Assembly: GCA_021323735.1 (NCBI GenBank)
Contig: JAJPKM010000013.1
Location: forward strand, 1-64,000
DNA: 64,000 nt
From: Gammaproteobacteria bacterium
Lineage (GTDB): Bacteria > Pseudomonadota > Gammaproteobacteria > Steroidobacterales > Steroidobacteraceae
Direction: 5' to 3'
Shown here in pieces: positions 1 to 61,781 of the stretch. The notes beneath the pieces were generated by a model. The model made no database searches. It had not been told where the DNA came from and saw only the letters and a list, made by a program, of their open reading frames with translations. A program made the translations under genes and the position numbers. The first letter of the stretch is position 1. Each line of letters starts with the position of its first letter.

Positions 1-75
1 CGCAGCAACCTGCGATCGATGCAGCGCCGGCCGACCCTTGTGCAGGCATTCTGGAAACAAGTTGATTTGTTCTGA
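1..75 (+). CDS. C-terminal end of an unidentified gene (partial)
   Basis: Frame 1 is open from the left edge to a TGA at 73-75, and the next gene's ATG lies only 2 nt later. That spacing suggests a translationally coupled upstream gene of the same accessory operon. Only about 24 residues are visible (ending ...KQVDLF) and they match no family I recognise. Such a short open frame could also be chance, so the call rests mostly on the tight junction. Confidence 0.4.
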   Translation, partial: RSNLRSMQRRPTLVQAFWKQVDLF

Positions 76-77
76 AT

Positions 78-692
78 ATGTCACTTATTTATGCAAGACT
101 CAATAGTCAGATCTTGCCCGACCGACTTAACGACTTTGTGCGGCATTACGAAAAGCCCAAATCTCGCAAAGCCCTTACGGCTGAAAGCTATCGTATCGAA
201 GACTTCCTGCAAGGATTGAGCGCGTCCAGCCACGGTCAGACAATAGTTGATCGAGAAGCAGCCATTCCCCATTTCGATCAGCAAAAGGCTATTGTCGAAG
301 CAGCGCAAGCTCGTTTTAAGAGTTCTCTATTCGACATCAAGCAGCTTATGCAGGCCGATCTGTTGGACTCAGAGCTAGACGCCGCACGAGAACTCGCATC
401 TCACAATTTTCTCCGTGCCGCGGGCGCGGTCGCGGGAGTAGTTCTAGAGAAACATTTAGCGCAGGTTTGCACCAACCACGGACTTACTTCTTCCAAGAAG
501 CATCCGACAATTTCGGATTTTAACGATGCGCTGAAAAACGCCAACGCCATTGATATCGGAGCTTGGCGGTTCAACCAGTTTCTAGGCGATATCAGAAATC
601 AATGCGATCACGGCAGAACGCCCGAGCCAACGTCAGTACAGATCGGCGATCTCATTGAGGGCGTGAACAAGGTCTCCAAGACAATTTTTTAG
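78..692 (+). CDS. HEPN-like / DUF4145-like helical protein, putative RNase or defence accessory
   Basis: A 204-residue, mostly helical protein with no signal peptide or membrane segment. The C-terminal half has the layout of HEPN or DUF4145 domains: a helix with R-A-A-G-A-V-A-G-V-V-L-E-K-H-L (about residues 115-130) followed by a helix ending R173-N-Q-C-D-H178. R173-X4-H178 fits the RX4-6H motif that forms the active site of HEPN ribonucleases. The N-terminal half is unrecognised. It begins 2 nt after a possible upstream gene and lies 256 nt before a STAND-NTPase defence gene on the same strand. HEPN proteins are frequent RNase effectors in defence and toxin-antitoxin loci. The motif is short, so RNase activity is an inference. 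A non-catalytic DUF4145 protein is the main alternative. Confidence 0.6.
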   Translation: MSLIYARLNSQILPDRLNDFVRHYEKPKSRKALTAESYRIEDFLQGLSASSHGQTIVDREAAIPHFDQQKAIVEAAQARFKSSLFDIKQLMQADLLDSELDAARELASHNFLRAAGAVAGVVLEKHLAQVCTNHGLTSSKKHPTISDFNDALKNANAIDIGAWRFNQFLGDIRNQCDHGRTPEPTSVQIGDLIEGVNKVSKTIF

Positions 693-770
693 CTCCTACA
701 ATCTGCAACGCTATTGACGCAATGCCGAGGCGCCTTTTATCTTGCGGTCGCTGCGCTACATTCCCGGCGC

Positions 771-786
771 GGCCATCCGGATGGCC
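771..786. repeat. Perfect 16-bp palindrome GGCCATCCGGATGGCC
   Basis: The 256-nt gap between the HEPN-like gene and the STAND gene holds a perfect palindrome at 771-786 in a GC-rich stretch. A related palindrome (GGTGGCCAT, 2 nt, ATGGCCACC) occurs at about 3983-4002 in the tRNA-derived repeats, so both may belong to one dispersed repeat family. There is no T-tract, so it is not a typical intrinsic terminator. The rest of the gap shows no gene. Confidence 0.5.
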
Positions 787-948
787 GGGGCTGCTCGCCC
801 ACGCGGTGGTGAATAGCTACAAGTTACGATCACCTGCCCTTATATATAGTCGTGGTCGCCCAATATCCTAACCACGCATCAAATTGAAAATAATGTGCAC
901 GCATGCAGACGGAGAGGTAGGGTGGCCAGAGAGTCGGAGGACATTCGG

Positions 949-3213
949 ATGTCGGACTACGATTTCGCTGAACTCAATGACAAAGAGTTTGAAATTCTCT
1001 GCACTGATTTGATTGGTGATGAGCGTGGGCATCGATTCGAGCGCTTCAAGCCCGGAAAAGACGGAGGCGTGGATGGGCGTTATTTCGCCGAAGATCGCAA
1101 GGAAGTCGTCCTGCAGTGCAAGCACTGGCCTGGCACACCAATCGAGCAACTCCTGTCCACACTGGAGAAAAAAGAAACCCAAAAGGTATCGAAGCTCAAG
1201 CCCCAATCGTACATTCTGGCCATATCAAAACAGCTTTCCAGGCTTGATAAACAGGCCTTAAGAAAGGCATTCGGGCCCTTCATCAAACGCGAGGACGATA
1301 TTTACGGTCGCGAGGACCTGAATCAACTTCTAAGCACCCGCCCTCATGTATTGAAACGACATACAAAGCTTTGGCTCAAGAACGCCGAAGTCCTAACGTC
1401 AATATTAAATTACGCCATTCTTGGACGTAGCCTTTACGCTGTGGAGGCGATGTTGGCTGCCGCGCGCACCTACGTCAGAACAAACAGTCATCTCGCAGCA
1501 GTGCAGATCGCCGAAGCGAACGGCGTTGTAATCCTTTCGGGCGAGCCTGGAATCGGCAAAACCACACTCGCGGAACAACTGTGTCTTGAATACATCGCGA
1601 GTGGGTTTACATTATACAAAATTGCGGATGACGTTTCGGGAGCCGAAGCCGTCTTTCGAGCCGACGACAAGCAAATCTTTTATTTTGATGATTTTCTTGG
1701 GCGCAATTACCTGGAGGCGTTTCGAGGTACAACCGGATCGCAGATCGTCAATTTTATAAACCGCGTTTCAAAAGCCAAGAGCAACAAGCGGTTCATTCTG
1801 ACATCGCGAAGTACGATATTGAATCGAGGAAAATTCGTGATGGATTACTATCGACACGAAAACATCGAAAACAATGAATACATCCTGACGATCAAATCAC
1901 TTACACAAATGGATCGGGCGCGAATTTTGTACAACCACATATGGTTCTCCGTTCTGCCCCCTGAATATGTGGAGGAAATTTATAAGCACAAACGTTACCG
2001 AGATATCGTCGGGCACGCTAATTACAACCCGCGCCTCATCCAGTTCATAACCAATCACGATCGCCTGAAAGAGTGCGCGCCCGATAAGTATTGGGGCTGT
2101 ATTGAGCAACATTTGGACAATCCAGCCGAAGTATGGGAGAACCCTTTTTCGTGGCAACTTGAGCCGAACGGTCGCATTCTCGTCCTGCTGGTTGCCACAC
2201 ATGGGAGGGAAATATCCGAAGAATCGCTCGGGATGGCCTTTGCGCGATTCGCCTCCTCAGCTGCTACTCAGCACTTGATGGGTGGCCTGGATTTCCTCGG
2301 CACGGTAAAACAGCTTACGGGCTCATTCATTTCAAGGAGAATCAGGGACGGCGGGACACCGTTAATTGATCTTTTTAACCCATCTATCGGAGACTATGTT
2401 CTTCGGCGTTTTGCGTCGGATGCAACCGCCCTTTTCTTCGCGATCAAAAGCTTGCGATCACTTCCTCCACTGAAAACGCTCCAATCGCAAGTAAGGGATG
2501 AAGTGATATCAAAACATTCATATTCCTCGATCACAAATGATTTGCTTGCGGATATGTGTGAGGGGGCATTCAAAGGCTTCACTGTCGATTACATTGCAGA
2601 GATTATTATCTTAAACATTCCTTTCGTCGAAATCGATCATAAGCGGAAACGCCTAGTCAAAACCGCTATACAGGCACTCGTGCTAGACGACCTGCCATCC
2701 GATTGCTCAACGATCTCATACGTTTACCAATGGTCTATCGGCCAAAACATAGTTTCGGAGAACGCAATCTTTGATTTCATTGTCGCCGCAAGCAAAACTA
2801 ACCGAGACGAAGAGGAGGTTCGTTCGTTAGCCAACTTGTTAGGCGATTTGGATCAGGCAGATCCTCAGTGGACCGACGCACACGATGCGCTGCGTGATTG
2901 TGCAGTCGAGTGGATGGCGGATAGCTTGCCCTACTATGTCGGCGACAACGACATTTTAGCTAGCGTTGGGTTTGAGGAGTATCTATCCGCAGAACGAGCC
3001 GTCGAAAGCGCTGTCGAGGAAAAACTGAAGGAGTTTTCGGCCCTGCAATTTACAAATGCGGACGTAGAGTCGGCAACTTCTAAATTTGATGCACGCGAAG
3101 CTCTCGACGACCGGTACACAGGCAGCGCCACGCAGGAGAGCTATTCATTCAGTAATGTCGGGAACTCGCTGGAGAGATTCGACGATATCGACGATTTATT
3201 TGAGCGTGGATAG
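949..3213 (+). CDS. Mrr-like restriction endonuclease - nSTAND NTPase fusion (Avs-like defence protein)
   Basis: A 754-residue cytoplasmic protein. Residues about 1-110 are a restriction-endonuclease fold of the Mrr type: a F-E-x-L-C-x-D-L helix, then G-K-D-G-G-V-D42-G-R and V-V-L-Q56-C-K58-H, the D...(E/Q)xK catalytic core. Residues about 180-330 are a STAND P-loop NTPase with Walker A G-E-P-G-I-G-K-T-T (about 198-206) and Walker B Y-F-D-D (about 247-248). The remaining 400 residues are helical and probably act as sensor. I chose the ATG at 949 because GGAGG sits 7-12 nt upstream; an ATG at 895 would add 18 unlikely basic residues. STAND NTPases with nuclease effectors sense phage proteins and kill the infected cell (Avs family, established). 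Assignment of this protein to the nSTAND3 class is from overall layout. AT content is visibly higher than in the core genes, consistent with transfer. Confidence 0.85.
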   Translation: MSDYDFAELNDKEFEILCTDLIGDERGHRFERFKPGKDGGVDGRYFAEDRKEVVLQCKHWPGTPIEQLLSTLEKKETQKVSKLKPQSYILAISKQLSRLDKQALRKAFGPFIKREDDIYGREDLNQLLSTRPHVLKRHTKLWLKNAEVLTSILNYAILGRSLYAVEAMLAAARTYVRTNSHLAAVQIAEANGVVILSGEPGIGKTTLAEQLCLEYIASGFTLYKIADDVSGAEAVFRADDKQIFYFDDFLGRNYLEAFRGTTGSQIVNFINRVSKAKSNKRFILTSRSTILNRGKFVMDYYRHENIENNEYILTIKSLTQMDRARILYNHIWFSVLPPEYVEEIYKHKRYRDIVGHANYNPRLIQFITNHDRLKECAPDKYWGCIEQHLDNPAEVWENPFSWQLEPNGRILVLLVATHGREISEESLGMAFARFASSAATQHLMGGLDFLGTVKQLTGSFISRRIRDGGTPLIDLFNPSIGDYVLRRFASDATALFFAIKSLRSLPPLKTLQSQVRDEVISKHSYSSITNDLLADMCEGAFKGFTVDYIAEIIILNIPFVEIDHKRKRLVKTAIQALVLDDLPSDCSTISYVYQWSIGQNIVSENAIFDFIVAASKTNRDEEEVRSLANLLGDLDQADPQWTDAHDALRDCAVEWMADSLPYYVGDNDILASVGFEEYLSAERAVESAVEEKLKEFSALQFTNADVESATSKFDAREALDDRYTGSATQESYSFSNVGNSLERFDDIDDLFERG

Positions 3214-3459
3214 GGATCAACTATTTATCGTTCTGAGGTGTGTTCTTCGCTCGCGTTGAGTAGTCAGATCGATCACATATTGTAAAGCGGGACGGTCGCT
3301 CGCGCGGGGTAGATACCGCCTGCCATGGGCCACAATGTGGCCCAAAAGTAAGCCGGAGGCTATCCTGCATATCGCCCTAAATGCAGCGAAACTCAAACAA
3401 CCGTTCCGTCGAAACTCAATAGTCACACCGCTTACGAAGCCCTCCGTCCGTATCGACGA

Positions 3460-3816
3460 TCACGCCAGTGCGGGGCGTTGCTCGCTACGGCGCAAACGAG
3501 ATTTCTGCGCCGGCTGGACCGTCAGGCGCAATCCAAAAGCCGCCAAGATCACCGCGAGGGTATCGAGCCGAGGATTGCCCCGCTCGGAAAGTGTCCTGTA
3601 CAGCGTCTCGCGGGAGAGCCCGGTCTTGTCGGCTAGTGCGGCCATGCCTCCCACGGCGTCCACCACGGTGCGCAGTGCAACGGGTACCGCGCGTGCGTCA
3701 ACGTCCTCTAGCATGGCTTCAATGTACGCCGCGACCTCGGCCTCGCTTCGCAGGTGATCCGCTGCTCTGTACGGGCGGCTTGGGGAGGCGGGCTTTGTAG
3801 TCTTTCCAGTACGCAT
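3460..3816 (-). CDS. HigA-type addiction-module antidote protein, apparently without its toxin
   Basis: A 118-residue protein with a C-terminal helix-turn-helix typical of the 'putative addiction module antidote' family: V-D-A-V-G-G-M-A-A-L-A-D-K-T-G-L-S-R-E-T-L-Y-R-T-L-S and then G-N-P-R-L-D-T-L. In this family a RelE/HigB-like toxin gene normally sits directly upstream. Here the upstream side is non-coding repeat DNA (3845-4326), and no toxin-like frame is present downstream either, so the antitoxin is orphaned or has been recruited as a regulator. It is transcribed towards the STAND gene (convergent). The basic N-terminal extension (about 20 residues, rich in K, P and R) may be non-native if translation starts later. 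Confidence 0.75.
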   Translation of the reverse strand: MRTGKTTKPASPSRPYRAADHLRSEAEVAAYIEAMLEDVDARAVPVALRTVVDAVGGMAALADKTGLSRETLYRTLSERGNPRLDTLAVILAAFGLRLTVQPAQKSRLRRSEQRPALA

Positions 3817-3828
3817 GGGCTGACCATT

Positions 3829-3844
3829 GTAGCCTAAAAGCTAC
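3829..3844. promoter_or_regulatory. Inverted repeat GTAGC-N6-GCTAC upstream of the antitoxin gene
   Basis: GTAGC (3829-3833) and GCTAC (3840-3844) flank CTAAAA, 13 nt upstream of the antitoxin start. The position suits an autoregulatory operator, as is usual for HTH antitoxins. Inferred from position and symmetry only. Confidence 0.4.
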
Positions 3845-3870
3845 GACCTGGGAGAATGGACCGTTTAGGC

Positions 3871-4326
3871 TGGTGCCGCAAAGAGGATTACTCGGCGCTA
3901 TGCGCCTCGCCCCTGCGGGGCCACCCTTCGGATGTTCAAATCGCCTGCGGCGATTTGTACTCGGCGCTGCGCGCAAGCCCTGGGTGGCCATCCATGGCCA
4001 CCCGTGCGACGCATGTGTCGCACCCCTTCGGGCGTTCGCCGCCGCTGCGCGGCGGCGTCGAACCGGCTTTTTGTCTGTCAGGGGTTCGAATAGAAGCGTC
4101 GAACGCTCGGCCCCGACGAACTTCCCCATACTTTTTTGTAAATTGGTGCCGCAAAGAGGATTACTCGGCGCTACGCGCCTCGCCCCTCGCTGACGCTCGG
4201 GGCCGCCCTTCGGGCGTTCGCCGCCGCTATGCGGCGGCGTCGAACCGGCTTTTTGTCTGTCAGGGGTTCGAACTAACGCGCAGAGCGGCACTGACCGGCG
4301 AGCGTCAGTAAAAATTTTTGTAAGGT
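3871..4326. repeat. Tandem tRNA-Thr-derived repeats, probable remnants of integration at the tRNA 3' end
   Basis: The non-coding stretch 3845-4326 holds two related units. The 19-mer TGGTGCCGCAAAGAGGATT, which is the 3' end of tRNA-Thr read from the other strand, occurs at 3871-3889 and 4144-4162, and again inside the tRNA gene at 4327-4345. In both extra copies it continues ACTCGGCGCT instead of the tRNA T-arm. Each unit ends with GTCAGGGGTTCGAA (4077-4090 and 4259-4272), the T-arm in inverted orientation, preceded by a shared stretch of about 45 nt with the arm GCCGCCGC(T)...GCGGCGGC. Long frames across here are translations of the repeats, not genes. The copies fit att-like duplications left by elements that insert at a tRNA 3' end, or a tRNA-tail dispersed repeat. 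Confidence 0.75.
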
Positions 4327-4402
4327 TGGTGCCGCAAAGAGGATTCGAACCCCTGACCCACGCATTACGAATGCGTTGCTCTACCGACTGAGCTATTGCG
4401 GC
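4327..4402 (-). tRNA. tRNA-Thr (CGT)
   Basis: The minus strand folds into a complete 76-nt cloverleaf. The acceptor stem is GCCGCAA/TTGCGGC, and the D arm carries AGCTCAGTCGGTAGAGC. The anticodon stem ACGCA/TGCGT has loop TTCGTAA (anticodon CGT, threonine), and the T arm is GGGGTTCGAATCC-like. The 3' CCA is encoded. It lies 21 nt downstream of ispH on the same strand. Its 3' end faces the accessory region at 1-4326, the usual geometry for an integrated element. Confidence 0.95.
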
Positions 4403-4423: not shown

Positions 4424-5404
4424 CTAACCCGTGGCGTCGCCGGACGTAAGACTGCTGCCGTGGCGGGCGACGTCGCGCAGCGCCCTGGGCAGGGCGAATA
4501 TCACATGTTCCTTGCGGCCGTCCAATTCGGCGGCGACTTCCCCGCCCCATTGGCGTAGCTGCGTAATCACGCCTTGGACCAGGACCTCGGGTGCGGAGGC
4601 CCCGGCGGTCACGCCGACGGTTTTGACGCCCTCGAACCATTCCCGGCGGAGATCCTCGGGTCCGTCGACCAGGTATCCCGGCTTGACGTTCTTGTCGGCC
4701 ATTTCGCGCAGGCGGTTGGAATTGGAGCTGGATTTCGACCCGACCACCACCAGAACCTCGCAGCGGCCGATCAGGTCCTTGACGGCGTCCTGGCGATTTT
4801 GCGTGGCGTAGCAGATGTCTTCCTTCACCGGGGCCTTGAGTTCGGGGAACCGGACGCGCAGCGCGGCCACGATCGATGCCGTGTCGTCCACCGACAAGGT
4901 GGTCTGGGTAACAAACGCGACGTGGCGGGGATCGCGTACCTTCAGGACCGCCACATCCTCCACCGTTTGCACCAGGTAAATCGAGCCGCCGAGCGATGCG
5001 TCGAATTGCCCGATGGTGCCCTCCACCTCCGGGTGCCCGGCGTGGCCGATCAGGAACACTTCGCGCGCCTCGCGGGCGTAGCGCGTGATCTCCATGTGCA
5101 CCTTGGTGACCAAGGGGCAGGTGGCATCGAACACATTCAGCGAGCGGCGCTGGGCTTCTTGCTGCACCGCCCGCGGCACGCCGTGGGCGCTGAAAATCAC
5201 CGTGGCGCCGTCCGGCACCTCGTGCAGCTCTTCGACGAACACCGCGCCGATGGTGCGCAGGCGGTCCACCACGTACTTGTTGTGCACCACTTCTTGTCTG
5301 ACATAGATGGGCGCGCCGAACAGCGTGACGGCACGCTCCACGATATCGATGGCGCGATCGACGCCCGCGCAAAATCCGCGGGGATTAGCGAGTAAAATTT
5401 GCAT
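4424..5404 (-). CDS. ispH: 4-hydroxy-3-methylbut-2-enyl diphosphate reductase (IspH/LytB)
   Basis: A 326-residue [4Fe-4S] enzyme of the last step of the MEP isoprenoid pathway, converting HMBPP to IPP and DMAPP in the cytosol. The start [18 protein letters not shown] carries the first cluster cysteine. [11 protein letters not shown] and [10 protein letters not shown] carry the other two. S-S-N-S-N-R-L and the E/T/H active-site motifs (E-G-T-I-G-Q, T-Q-T-T-L-S) are present. The start at 5404 overlaps the lspA 3' end by 20 nt, and upstream in-frame codons lie inside lspA. It is last in the ribF-ileS-lspA-ispH operon. The fkpB gene often found between lspA and ispH in gammaproteobacteria is absent. 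Confidence 0.97.
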
Positions 5405-47771: not shown

Positions 47772-47965
47772 GGGTCAGGCCGGTCTCCGGACTCACGAGC
47801 GCATATGAAATGCCGGCGAATCACCTTCCCGCGTCCATGACGCAGTGGCTTATCGACCGCCGTTACTCGTTTACCGTTGCGGGGGCAGCGCCGGGTTTGG
47901 TTCTCATCAGTGAAGAACACGCACCGGCTTCCCGTTTCACTTCGCCTTCCCGGTACACCGAGATT
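47772..47965 (-). ncRNA. Cobalamin riboswitch upstream of cobW-NiCoT
   Basis: On the minus strand, in order: GGGAAGCCGGTG, GCTGCCCCCGCAACGGTAA, the B12 box GCCACTG (complement at 47843-47849), GGGAAGG and GTCCGGAGACCGGCC. These are the conserved blocks of the AdoCbl-type riboswitch (Rfam Cobalamin family). It should repress cobW and the cobalt permease when B12 is abundant. End points are approximate. Confidence 0.92.
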
Positions 47966-48058
47966 CGCGGCAAAGCACCTGACAACTTCGGGCAGGATGC
48001 TAACCGTCGCAAAAGGGCTTGGCAAGCTGAGAAAGCCGGCCCGGCGAGTCGTTCAATG

Positions 48059-61429: not shown

Positions 61430-61458
61430 TTGACAACGCGTGGGCGCAACGTTGTACT
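61430..61458 (+). promoter_or_regulatory. Sigma-70 promoter driving the riboswitch-DUF1636-cobGH transcript
   Basis: TTGACA (61430-61435), exactly 17 bp, TGTACT (61453-61458). Start near 61465, just before the riboswitch. Confidence 0.7.
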
Positions 61459-61467
61459 AGCGCCCTT

Positions 61468-61656
61468 GATGGCCTCTCTCGAGTGAGAGAGCGATGAGGG
61501 AATGTGGTACGCATCGCGCCTCGAAGGCGAATGCCAACCCACGGCTGCCCCCGCAACTGTAAGCGGCGAGCGCTTGCCTGATGCCACTGATCTGTCCTTA
61601 GCGGCGGGTCGGGAAGGCGGCAAGCTGCACTGACCCGCGAGCCAGGAGACCTGCCA
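61468..61656 (+). ncRNA. Cobalamin riboswitch upstream of DUF1636-cobG-cobH
   Basis: On the plus strand: GAGGGAATGTGGT, GCTGCCCCCGCAACTGTAA, the B12 box GCCACTG, GGGAAGGCGGC and GAGCCAGGAGACCTGCC, the ordered AdoCbl-riboswitch blocks. It should switch off corrin-ring genes when B12 is sufficient. Downstream, TGAGGAG at 61767-61773 is the ribosome binding site of the first gene and may be the regulated element. The rest of the 518-nt gap 61264-61781 holds the 14-bp repeats and promoters. Confidence 0.95.
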
Positions 61657-61781
61657 TCCCATTGGTCGCGTGCCGGGCGGGGTGCCTCGGCGACGGTCGA
61701 GTTCGTCTCGACTGTGTGCGAATCGGCCCAACCGATTCGGCACCGGTTCCGCACCCCGAGCTTAAGTGAGGAGCCGTACGA

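Follow-up and report, generated by a model that had tools for sequence, protein, structure and literature searches.

A tRNA-Thr island, probably decayed, with a surviving PDC-S73-type STAND gene, a truncated HEPN-like gene and RtT-type tRNA-trailer repeats in a Steroidobacteraceae genome

Introduction

At the beginning of contig JAJPKM010000013.1 of the gammaproteobacterial assembly GCA_021323735.1 (Steroidobacteraceae), two genes follow each other on one strand between the contig end and a tRNA-Thr gene: an open reading frame (ORF) with the RxxxxH motif of HEPN RNases, and a gene for a restriction endonuclease fused to a STAND NTPase. Do they form one defence locus with two nucleic-acid-degrading activities, as a preliminary description of this DNA proposed, or are they neighbours by chance? 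We addressed this question in the first 64,000 nucleotides of the contig (positions 1 to 64,000, hereafter the window; contig C33 of genome G000 in our labelling), the first base of which is base 1 of the contig, with its left side beyond view. The best explanation, to which we give a probability of about 0.8, is a decayed integrative element at tRNA-Thr with a surviving PDC-S73-type STAND cargo gene, the HEPN gene being separate, broken by an insertion sequence (IS) and not a partner. The two-gene system was rejected on the absence of linkage and on the truncation of the HEPN gene, and a false candidate for such a system is thus removed. Juxtaposition misleads here: the island is decaying, and next to a defence gene it carries a gene fragment to which the end of an IS has become joined. 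More interesting than the pair are the repeats next to the tRNA gene, which belong to a type found in the genus at nine tRNA types.

Results

The STAND gene is intact, and the fusion recognized by the preliminary description was borne out: Pfam places Mrr_cat at residues 8-75 (E 4.8e-6) and nSTAND3 at residues 175-333 (E 2.3e-47) of the product. Nearly the whole protein (residues 1-753 of 754) matches positions 1-751 of the 752 in the PADLOC model PDC-S73 (PDLC05079; 841.5 bits, E 2.2e-253), without any difference found, and the gene alone is therefore already catalogued as a candidate. PDC presumably stands for 'phage defence candidate', a phrase that occurs in one literature record; the literature searched contained no paper that mentions PDC-S73 by name. 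The earlier statement that no named system is known holds for the pair among the literature matches listed, and not for the STAND gene. From the 'S' of the label we read PDC-S73 as a putative single-gene candidate without an obligate partner. Residues E15, D38, G40, D42, Q56 and K58, the Walker A motif GxPGxGK and the DDFxG motif are invariant in the 16 aligned STAND sequences, and when a structure model built from this alignment (mean pLDDT 71) is compared with the PDB, its top fold matches, at E 1.7e-7 to 1.1e-6, are Avs4 with phage portal, filaments of Avs5, and Avs3 with terminase. Searching solved structures by sequence gave weak matches, centred on the P-loop region.

As far as the model goes, the protein resembles STAND proteins in general, Avs foremost, and the sequence suggests an Avs-like architecture in a protein that is PDC-S73 by classification. 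Shared with Avs are the STAND fold, the N-terminal effector and the C-terminal helical region, with intact Walker motifs between them; no PADLOC Avs model is among the nine matches of the protein at E up to 1. Avs5 also has nSTAND3, behind a Sir2-like effector (PMC12931631), where the window protein has Mrr instead. Solved Avs5 chains (767-833 aa) are of similar length to the window protein, whereas those of Avs4 and Avs3 measure 1534-2004 aa.

Loci with STAND relatives numbered 27, of which 5 came from the class sample, 15 from an alignment-based contig scan and 7 from the phylum and genus samples; the scan with the STAND alignment yielded at least 15 loci, and a contig scan with the single STAND protein as query found none. 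Of 20 loci, 18 have the relative as an ORF 745-791 aa long, that of L050 being shorter and that of L068 split. When all neighbours in these 20 loci were compared with one another, just two groups beyond STAND were common to several loci, both ATPases (in 3 and 2 loci), the more frequent being OLD-like by sequence and by the Pfam tally. No partner is thus common to more than 3 of the 20 loci, which fits a single-gene candidate. The Pfam tally covered 102 of the 105 listed neighbours in the 27 loci, three long ones being left out; it includes OLD-like TOPRIM (3), phage integrase (3) and ResIII (2), and OLD-like, integrase, restriction and GajA-like families are represented, no listed family accounting for more than 5 of the 102 proteins. 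Among the best 25 of 90 families no HEPN family occurred in two or more neighbours, a tally that leaves room for a single occurrence. Three of 23 genomes of the genus have STAND: the window genome, G378 (33% identity, elsewhere in the genome) and G375 (a weak partial match). Relatives also occur in two unannotated phage records. A further genome (G057 C6, L053 8051-13569) has a 50%-identical tyrosine integrase at a tmRNA gene, with a STAND relative at a distance of 1.5 kb from the integrase.

A role of the STAND protein outside defence would agree with its sparse distribution (9 of 398 genomes) and with a defence role that is predicted only; the PADLOC candidate family, the defence and integrase genes among some neighbours and the Avs-like fold speak against such a role, and we hold it to be improbable.

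The ORF upstream is chimeric. Window positions 1-105 carry the final 24 codons of a transposase, with the stop at 73-75, and the start of the ORF at 78 appears, from the sequence, to sit inside the insertion element. The HEPN gene was most likely cut by this DDE_3 element, because HEPN homology begins only near base 108, because window positions 1-107 are identical to a contig end of the same genome (C20:1-107) beyond which the two contigs diverge, and because all 11 alignments obtained with a 160-base query stop between bases 105 and 107. Sequence similar to the IS end is present in 8 of 118 genomes of relatives searched, the window genome included. In congener G372, the IS end has a 105-nt match of 90% identity in an element that encodes a DDE_3 transposase (PF13358, E 9.7e-29) beside an HTH_33 ORF. 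DDE_3 marks IS630-type elements, which insert at TA, and we take the present element to be of that type. A 19-nt pattern of the IS end occurs in the source genome only at the two contig ends, and plasmid DNA and protein searches for the IS end gave no match. Two other candidates were discarded: on contig C37, 14 nt match the IS end, inside other genes and without extending further, and a 12-nt repeat (98-109 and 3414-3425) considered as a pair of element ends is put down to chance, since congeners G371 and G385 both have native similar sequence at the second copy.

This ORF likely carries a HEPN domain, as indicated by its relatives, its invariant R173 and H178 and its predicted fold. The product is 60% identical over 199 aa to residues 71-269 of a 269-aa plasmid protein of Paraburkholderia phymatum, and the arginine and histidine of the motif are conserved in 8 of 8 sequences. 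In the structure model, block means of pLDDT are 78-94 over residues 91-200. Five of the first 10 PDB matches retrieved with Foldseek are named HEPN, and a sixth, 1wwp, is given as HEPN in PMC3710099; probabilities are 0.96-1.00, with a best E of 1.8e-3 and none at or below 0.001. A sequence search of solved structures produced a single match (E 0.71). Of the profiles suggested in the preliminary description, Mrr and nSTAND3 matched as reported above, and the HEPN protein had no significant match in Pfam, PADLOC or NCBIfam; the curated HEPN profiles did not match the P. phymatum and G342 relatives either, and phage records searched with the P. phymatum protein held no HEPN relative. With DUF4145-type HEPN proteins the ORF has in common the RxxxxH motif and the likely fold, its plasmid relatives are annotated DUF4145 or HEPN, and the relative L014 matches HEPN profiles below their cut-offs; it differs in having no significant family-model match and in its truncation. 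The HEPN protein first described thus stands as regards motif and likely fold, and falls as regards an entire gene.

We consider the fragment probably inert and non-functional. Its translation into an RNase that acts on its own, by possible re-initiation at ATG 78 after the transposase stop, would draw on an open frame, on the retention of R173 and H178 and on a modelled HEPN core that is mostly confident; the ORF nevertheless lacks about 70-75 N-terminal residues of three full-length relatives (P. phymatum, 269 aa; G342, 271 aa; G709), whose extra N-terminal stretch measures about 70-85 residues in comparison with it, and inspection by eye found no Shine-Dalgarno-like sequence ahead of ATG 78. 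Such a solitary RNase seems to us unlikely.

The tRNA-Thr(CGT) gene turns its 3' end toward the block, as originally described, and is likely the integration site of the island. To its left lie the HEPN, STAND and antitoxin ORFs and a repeat-rich stretch; to its right are what we take, from their sequence and not from a profile search, to be ispH (about 4424-5404) and other core-looking genes. Positions 1-4000 have a G+C content of 51.7%; the remaining 15 bins of 4 kb range from 57.9% to 66.2%. With an ispH-tRNA-Thr query, matches at E <= 0.001 were obtained in 57 of 60 relatives, a tRNA alone being covered by part of them. Of the congener loci fetched, 15 hold tRNA-Thr; a single match spans ispH and the tRNA in 14 of them, and in the fifteenth (G385) the contig begins at tRNA-Thr. 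The genes downstream of it differ among congeners, if not at every locus (TonB receptors are found in two), and 9 of the 19 proteins scanned from these regions have no family.

In G371 and G385, the genes next to tRNA-Thr encode, in this order, a tyrosine integrase (entire in G371 and divided between two ORFs in G385), a toxin and an antitoxin, and the window retains part of this arrangement (Table 1). Its HI1420-type antitoxin has 94% amino acid identity to the G371 counterpart and 92% to that of G385 and is without a whole partner, the partner toxin surviving as its last 34 codons; the G371 toxin matches Gp49 below the cut-off (E 0.003). From 3825 to 3844 the window again agrees with G385 (20 of 20 nt), there with the beginning of the toxin gene and the bases that precede it. 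No match to the G371 integrase was found within the window. The preliminary description had likewise seen no integrase and had placed it left of the window, which need not hold because G371 and G385 have the integrase between the tRNA and the toxin-antitoxin pair. The comparison depicts an island in decay at a variable tRNA-Thr site; its accessory, apparently defence-type nature and its STAND nuclease resembling Avs proteins are much as first proposed. Other genes were noticed at these sites: a PIN-domain gene adjoins the toxin-antitoxin pair in the tRNA-Thr region of G371 (L108 5754-6149), and a gene that begins 160 nt beyond tRNA-Thr in another congener, G369 (L117 785-1816), matches DUF4062, a domain of other conflict systems.

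Between the antitoxin gene and tRNA-Thr lie two exact 19-nt copies of the tRNA 3' end (3871-3889 and 4144-4162). Their existence was correctly reported in the preliminary description; its att-like reading of them fails, for they belong to RtT-type repeats. On the tRNA strand, each unit opens with an inverted part copy of the T arm (14-15 nt) and closes with GCCGAGTAATCCTCTTTGCGGCACCA, the close of which is the tRNA's exact last 19 nt. RtT is a long-described repeat of tyrT. Our search of the literature for RtT or tyrT repeats showed, among the matches listed, no relevant paper and none with rttR. In the E. coli K-12 tyrV control, there is an annotated rttR RNA with three copies of the tRNA's own last 19 nt, each behind GCTGAGT. 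The window units share with RtT/rttR of E. coli tyrV-tyrT (RF00391) the GCYGAGTAATCC sequence, the like hairpins that precede it and, at the end, an exact copy of the final 19 nt of the tRNA upstream; they differ in standing at tRNA-Thr(CGT), those of the genus standing at eight further tRNA types, and in scoring below the Rfam cut-off of 45 bits (Table 1), which the three E. coli units exceed (133.8-137.5 bits). At the gathering threshold Rfam reports no RtT in the window, L030, L031, L033, L034 or L115; at E up to 1 there is a match in 9 of 12 congener stretches, one of them above the cut-off. In L175 1261-1663 (G372 C50), tRNA-Gln(TTG) is followed by three tandem RtT matches (41.3, 47.0 and 31.9 bits). 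The window units thus appear RtT-type by their anatomy, and it is a related member, not the window units, that passes the Rfam test.

The same unit recurs in the genus. A count over the 23 congener genomes gives 68 sites with the motif GCYGARTAATCC and 2 with a reversed control pattern; 20 of the 68 have a same-strand tRNA at most 900 nt upstream. At 14 of these 20 sites, the next 19 nt match the 3' end of the site's own tRNA at 17 or more positions, with nine tRNA types represented. Leaving aside the shared AATCC, 18 of the 20 match the adjacent tRNA type at 10 or more of 14 positions (L205 at only 6), and the adjacent type is the unique best of the ten compared in all but one (L219). The motif alone is unspecific, since of the 48 sites without a detected tRNA a tRNA-like tail is present in 4 and not in 44. 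The repeats of the genus thus follow nine tRNA types, tRNA-Thr included, each copying its own tRNA's 3' end. RtT-type repeats also lie elsewhere in the window genome, on contigs C26, C40, C3, C52 and C14 (L202, L204, L164, L205 and L183); the cognate last 19 nt are copied only partly in L164 and weakly in L205.

Successive integrations would offer another origin for the 19-nt copies, as att scars. The copies are exact and face the island, and copies of the tRNA-Thr 3' part do accompany integrases in congeners: G378 has one of 46 nt and one of 45 nt, the latter about 250 bp from an integrase in two frames, and G386 has a 44-nt copy with a partial integrase match 330 bp on. The G378 copies look, from their sequence, like true att sites. 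Against scars in the window stand the recurrence of the same unit, with a cognate 19-nt end, at nine tRNA types of the genus and at E. coli tyrV, the length of the integrase-associated copies (44-46 nt, not 19) and a search of the 67 short stretches that surround the motif (mostly 1.4-3 kb), none of which matched the G371 integrase, and we judge this origin very unlikely. Exact copies of a tRNA 3' end beside the tRNA need not be att sites, for RtT-type repeats make them. The G378 region (C19, L100 1152-18376) also has a HipA-like gene and apparently consists of tandem islands.

Linkage of the two genes was assessed with tblastn (E <= 1e-3), eight HEPN queries and the STAND query, in loci with flanks of mostly 8-10 kb, shorter at contig ends (e.g. 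L050, L056, L059, L142). HEPN relatives were detected in none of the 27 STAND-relative loci, and STAND relatives in none of the 11 HEPN-relative loci; the HEPN gene is thus unlinked elsewhere, which the preliminary description had named as evidence against its pairing with STAND. In the class sample of 369 genomes, HEPN is present in 6 (E <= 1e-3) and STAND in 6 (E <= 1e-40), with both in the window genome and in G224, where they lie about 510 kb apart. In the phylum sample of 398 genomes, STAND is present in 9 (E <= 1e-60) and HEPN in 7 (E <= 1e-8), both again in these two genomes, and the co-occurrence survey that had been suggested finds them adjacent in the window genome only. A true defence system of two genes, one arm degrading DNA and the other RNA, for which one could cite the shared strand, the gap of 256 nt, the HEPN motif kept in a likely fold and the DUF4145-type HEPN genes found elsewhere in operons with restriction systems (PMC3710099), is highly improbable in the face of this missing linkage and of the IS truncation, and the HEPN gene is probably a chance neighbour.

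Discussion

In the explanation we prefer, the order in the island's relatives would be tRNA-Thr, tyrosine integrase, toxin, antitoxin and cargo; the window island would have lost the integrase and most of the toxin gene, leaving the antitoxin orphaned, and the HEPN RNase gene further upstream would be separate cargo or debris broken by the DDE_3 insertion. From the fold and the catalytic residues of the STAND protein, we infer that its C-terminal region may sense a phage product, that the STAND module may oligomerise with ATP, and that the Mrr domain may cut DNA and so stop the phage or the cell. What the window contributes to defence is one more intact PDC-S73 protein, a known kind of candidate.

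Several observations weigh against this explanation. PDC-S73 is itself a mere candidate family, and the anti-phage role of the STAND gene is predicted. PADLOC also has Aga models that match residues 3-160 of the protein (E 2e-39 and 9.6e-29). Nor is the fold match specific to Avs, since the eukaryotic STAND proteins NLRC4 and NOD2 follow closely behind in the list; the first four matches have low TM-scores (0.22-0.38 over the query), and pLDDT is below 50 across most of residues 600-741. Past the break, the HEPN reading frame continues without a stop for about 194 codons, which makes a product possible. As for the island, the integrase-toxin-antitoxin module stands beside tRNA-Thr in just 2 of the 15 congener loci, and the contig end cuts the island off on the left, with any further cargo or left att site beyond view.

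Regarding the repeats, we propose tentatively that RtT may be a general, dispersed tRNA-trailer family that re-copies the 3' end of its host tRNA and not a curiosity of tyrT, each unit consisting of hairpins, then the core GCYGARTAATCC and lastly a copy of the final 19 nt of the tRNA that it follows; taken together, these propositions seem to us possible, with somewhat more doubt than confidence. If they are true, the re-copying could proceed by gene conversion, by tandem duplication or by mobility targeted to tRNA ends, and the units might perhaps serve as decoy 3' ends for tRNA-processing enzymes.

Features of the window

Table 1. Features of the island and their positions in the window
Feature	Position	Strand	Remarks
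Right end of DDE_3 insertion sequence	1..105	+	ends at about TA 104-105
Chimeric ORF	78..692	+	10 codons of IS end fused to truncated (likely) HEPN gene
Mrr endonuclease + nSTAND3 NTPase + C-terminal helical region	949..3213	+	754 aa, intact; Pfam, PADLOC, fold
Block conserved in G371/G385 tRNA-Thr islands	3411..3822		361 and 354 identities in 413 columns (87%, 86%)
HI1420-type antitoxin gene	3460..3816	-	PF21716 E 7.4e-19, TIGR02684 E 3.1e-22
Partner toxin remnant, last 34 codons	3722..3823	-	91% identity to residues 96-129 of G371 toxin
RtT-type tRNA-trailer repeat, distal unit	3871..4091	-	ends in 19-nt tRNA-Thr 3' end; 21.1 bits
RtT-type tRNA-trailer repeat, proximal unit	4144..4272	-	ends in 19-nt tRNA-Thr 3' end; 17.8 bits
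tRNA-Thr(CGT)	4327..4402	-	ARAGORN, Rfam; 3' end toward block

Elsewhere in the window, two cobalamin riboswitches score above the Rfam gathering threshold, at 47774-47983 on the minus strand and at 61453-61672 on the plus strand.

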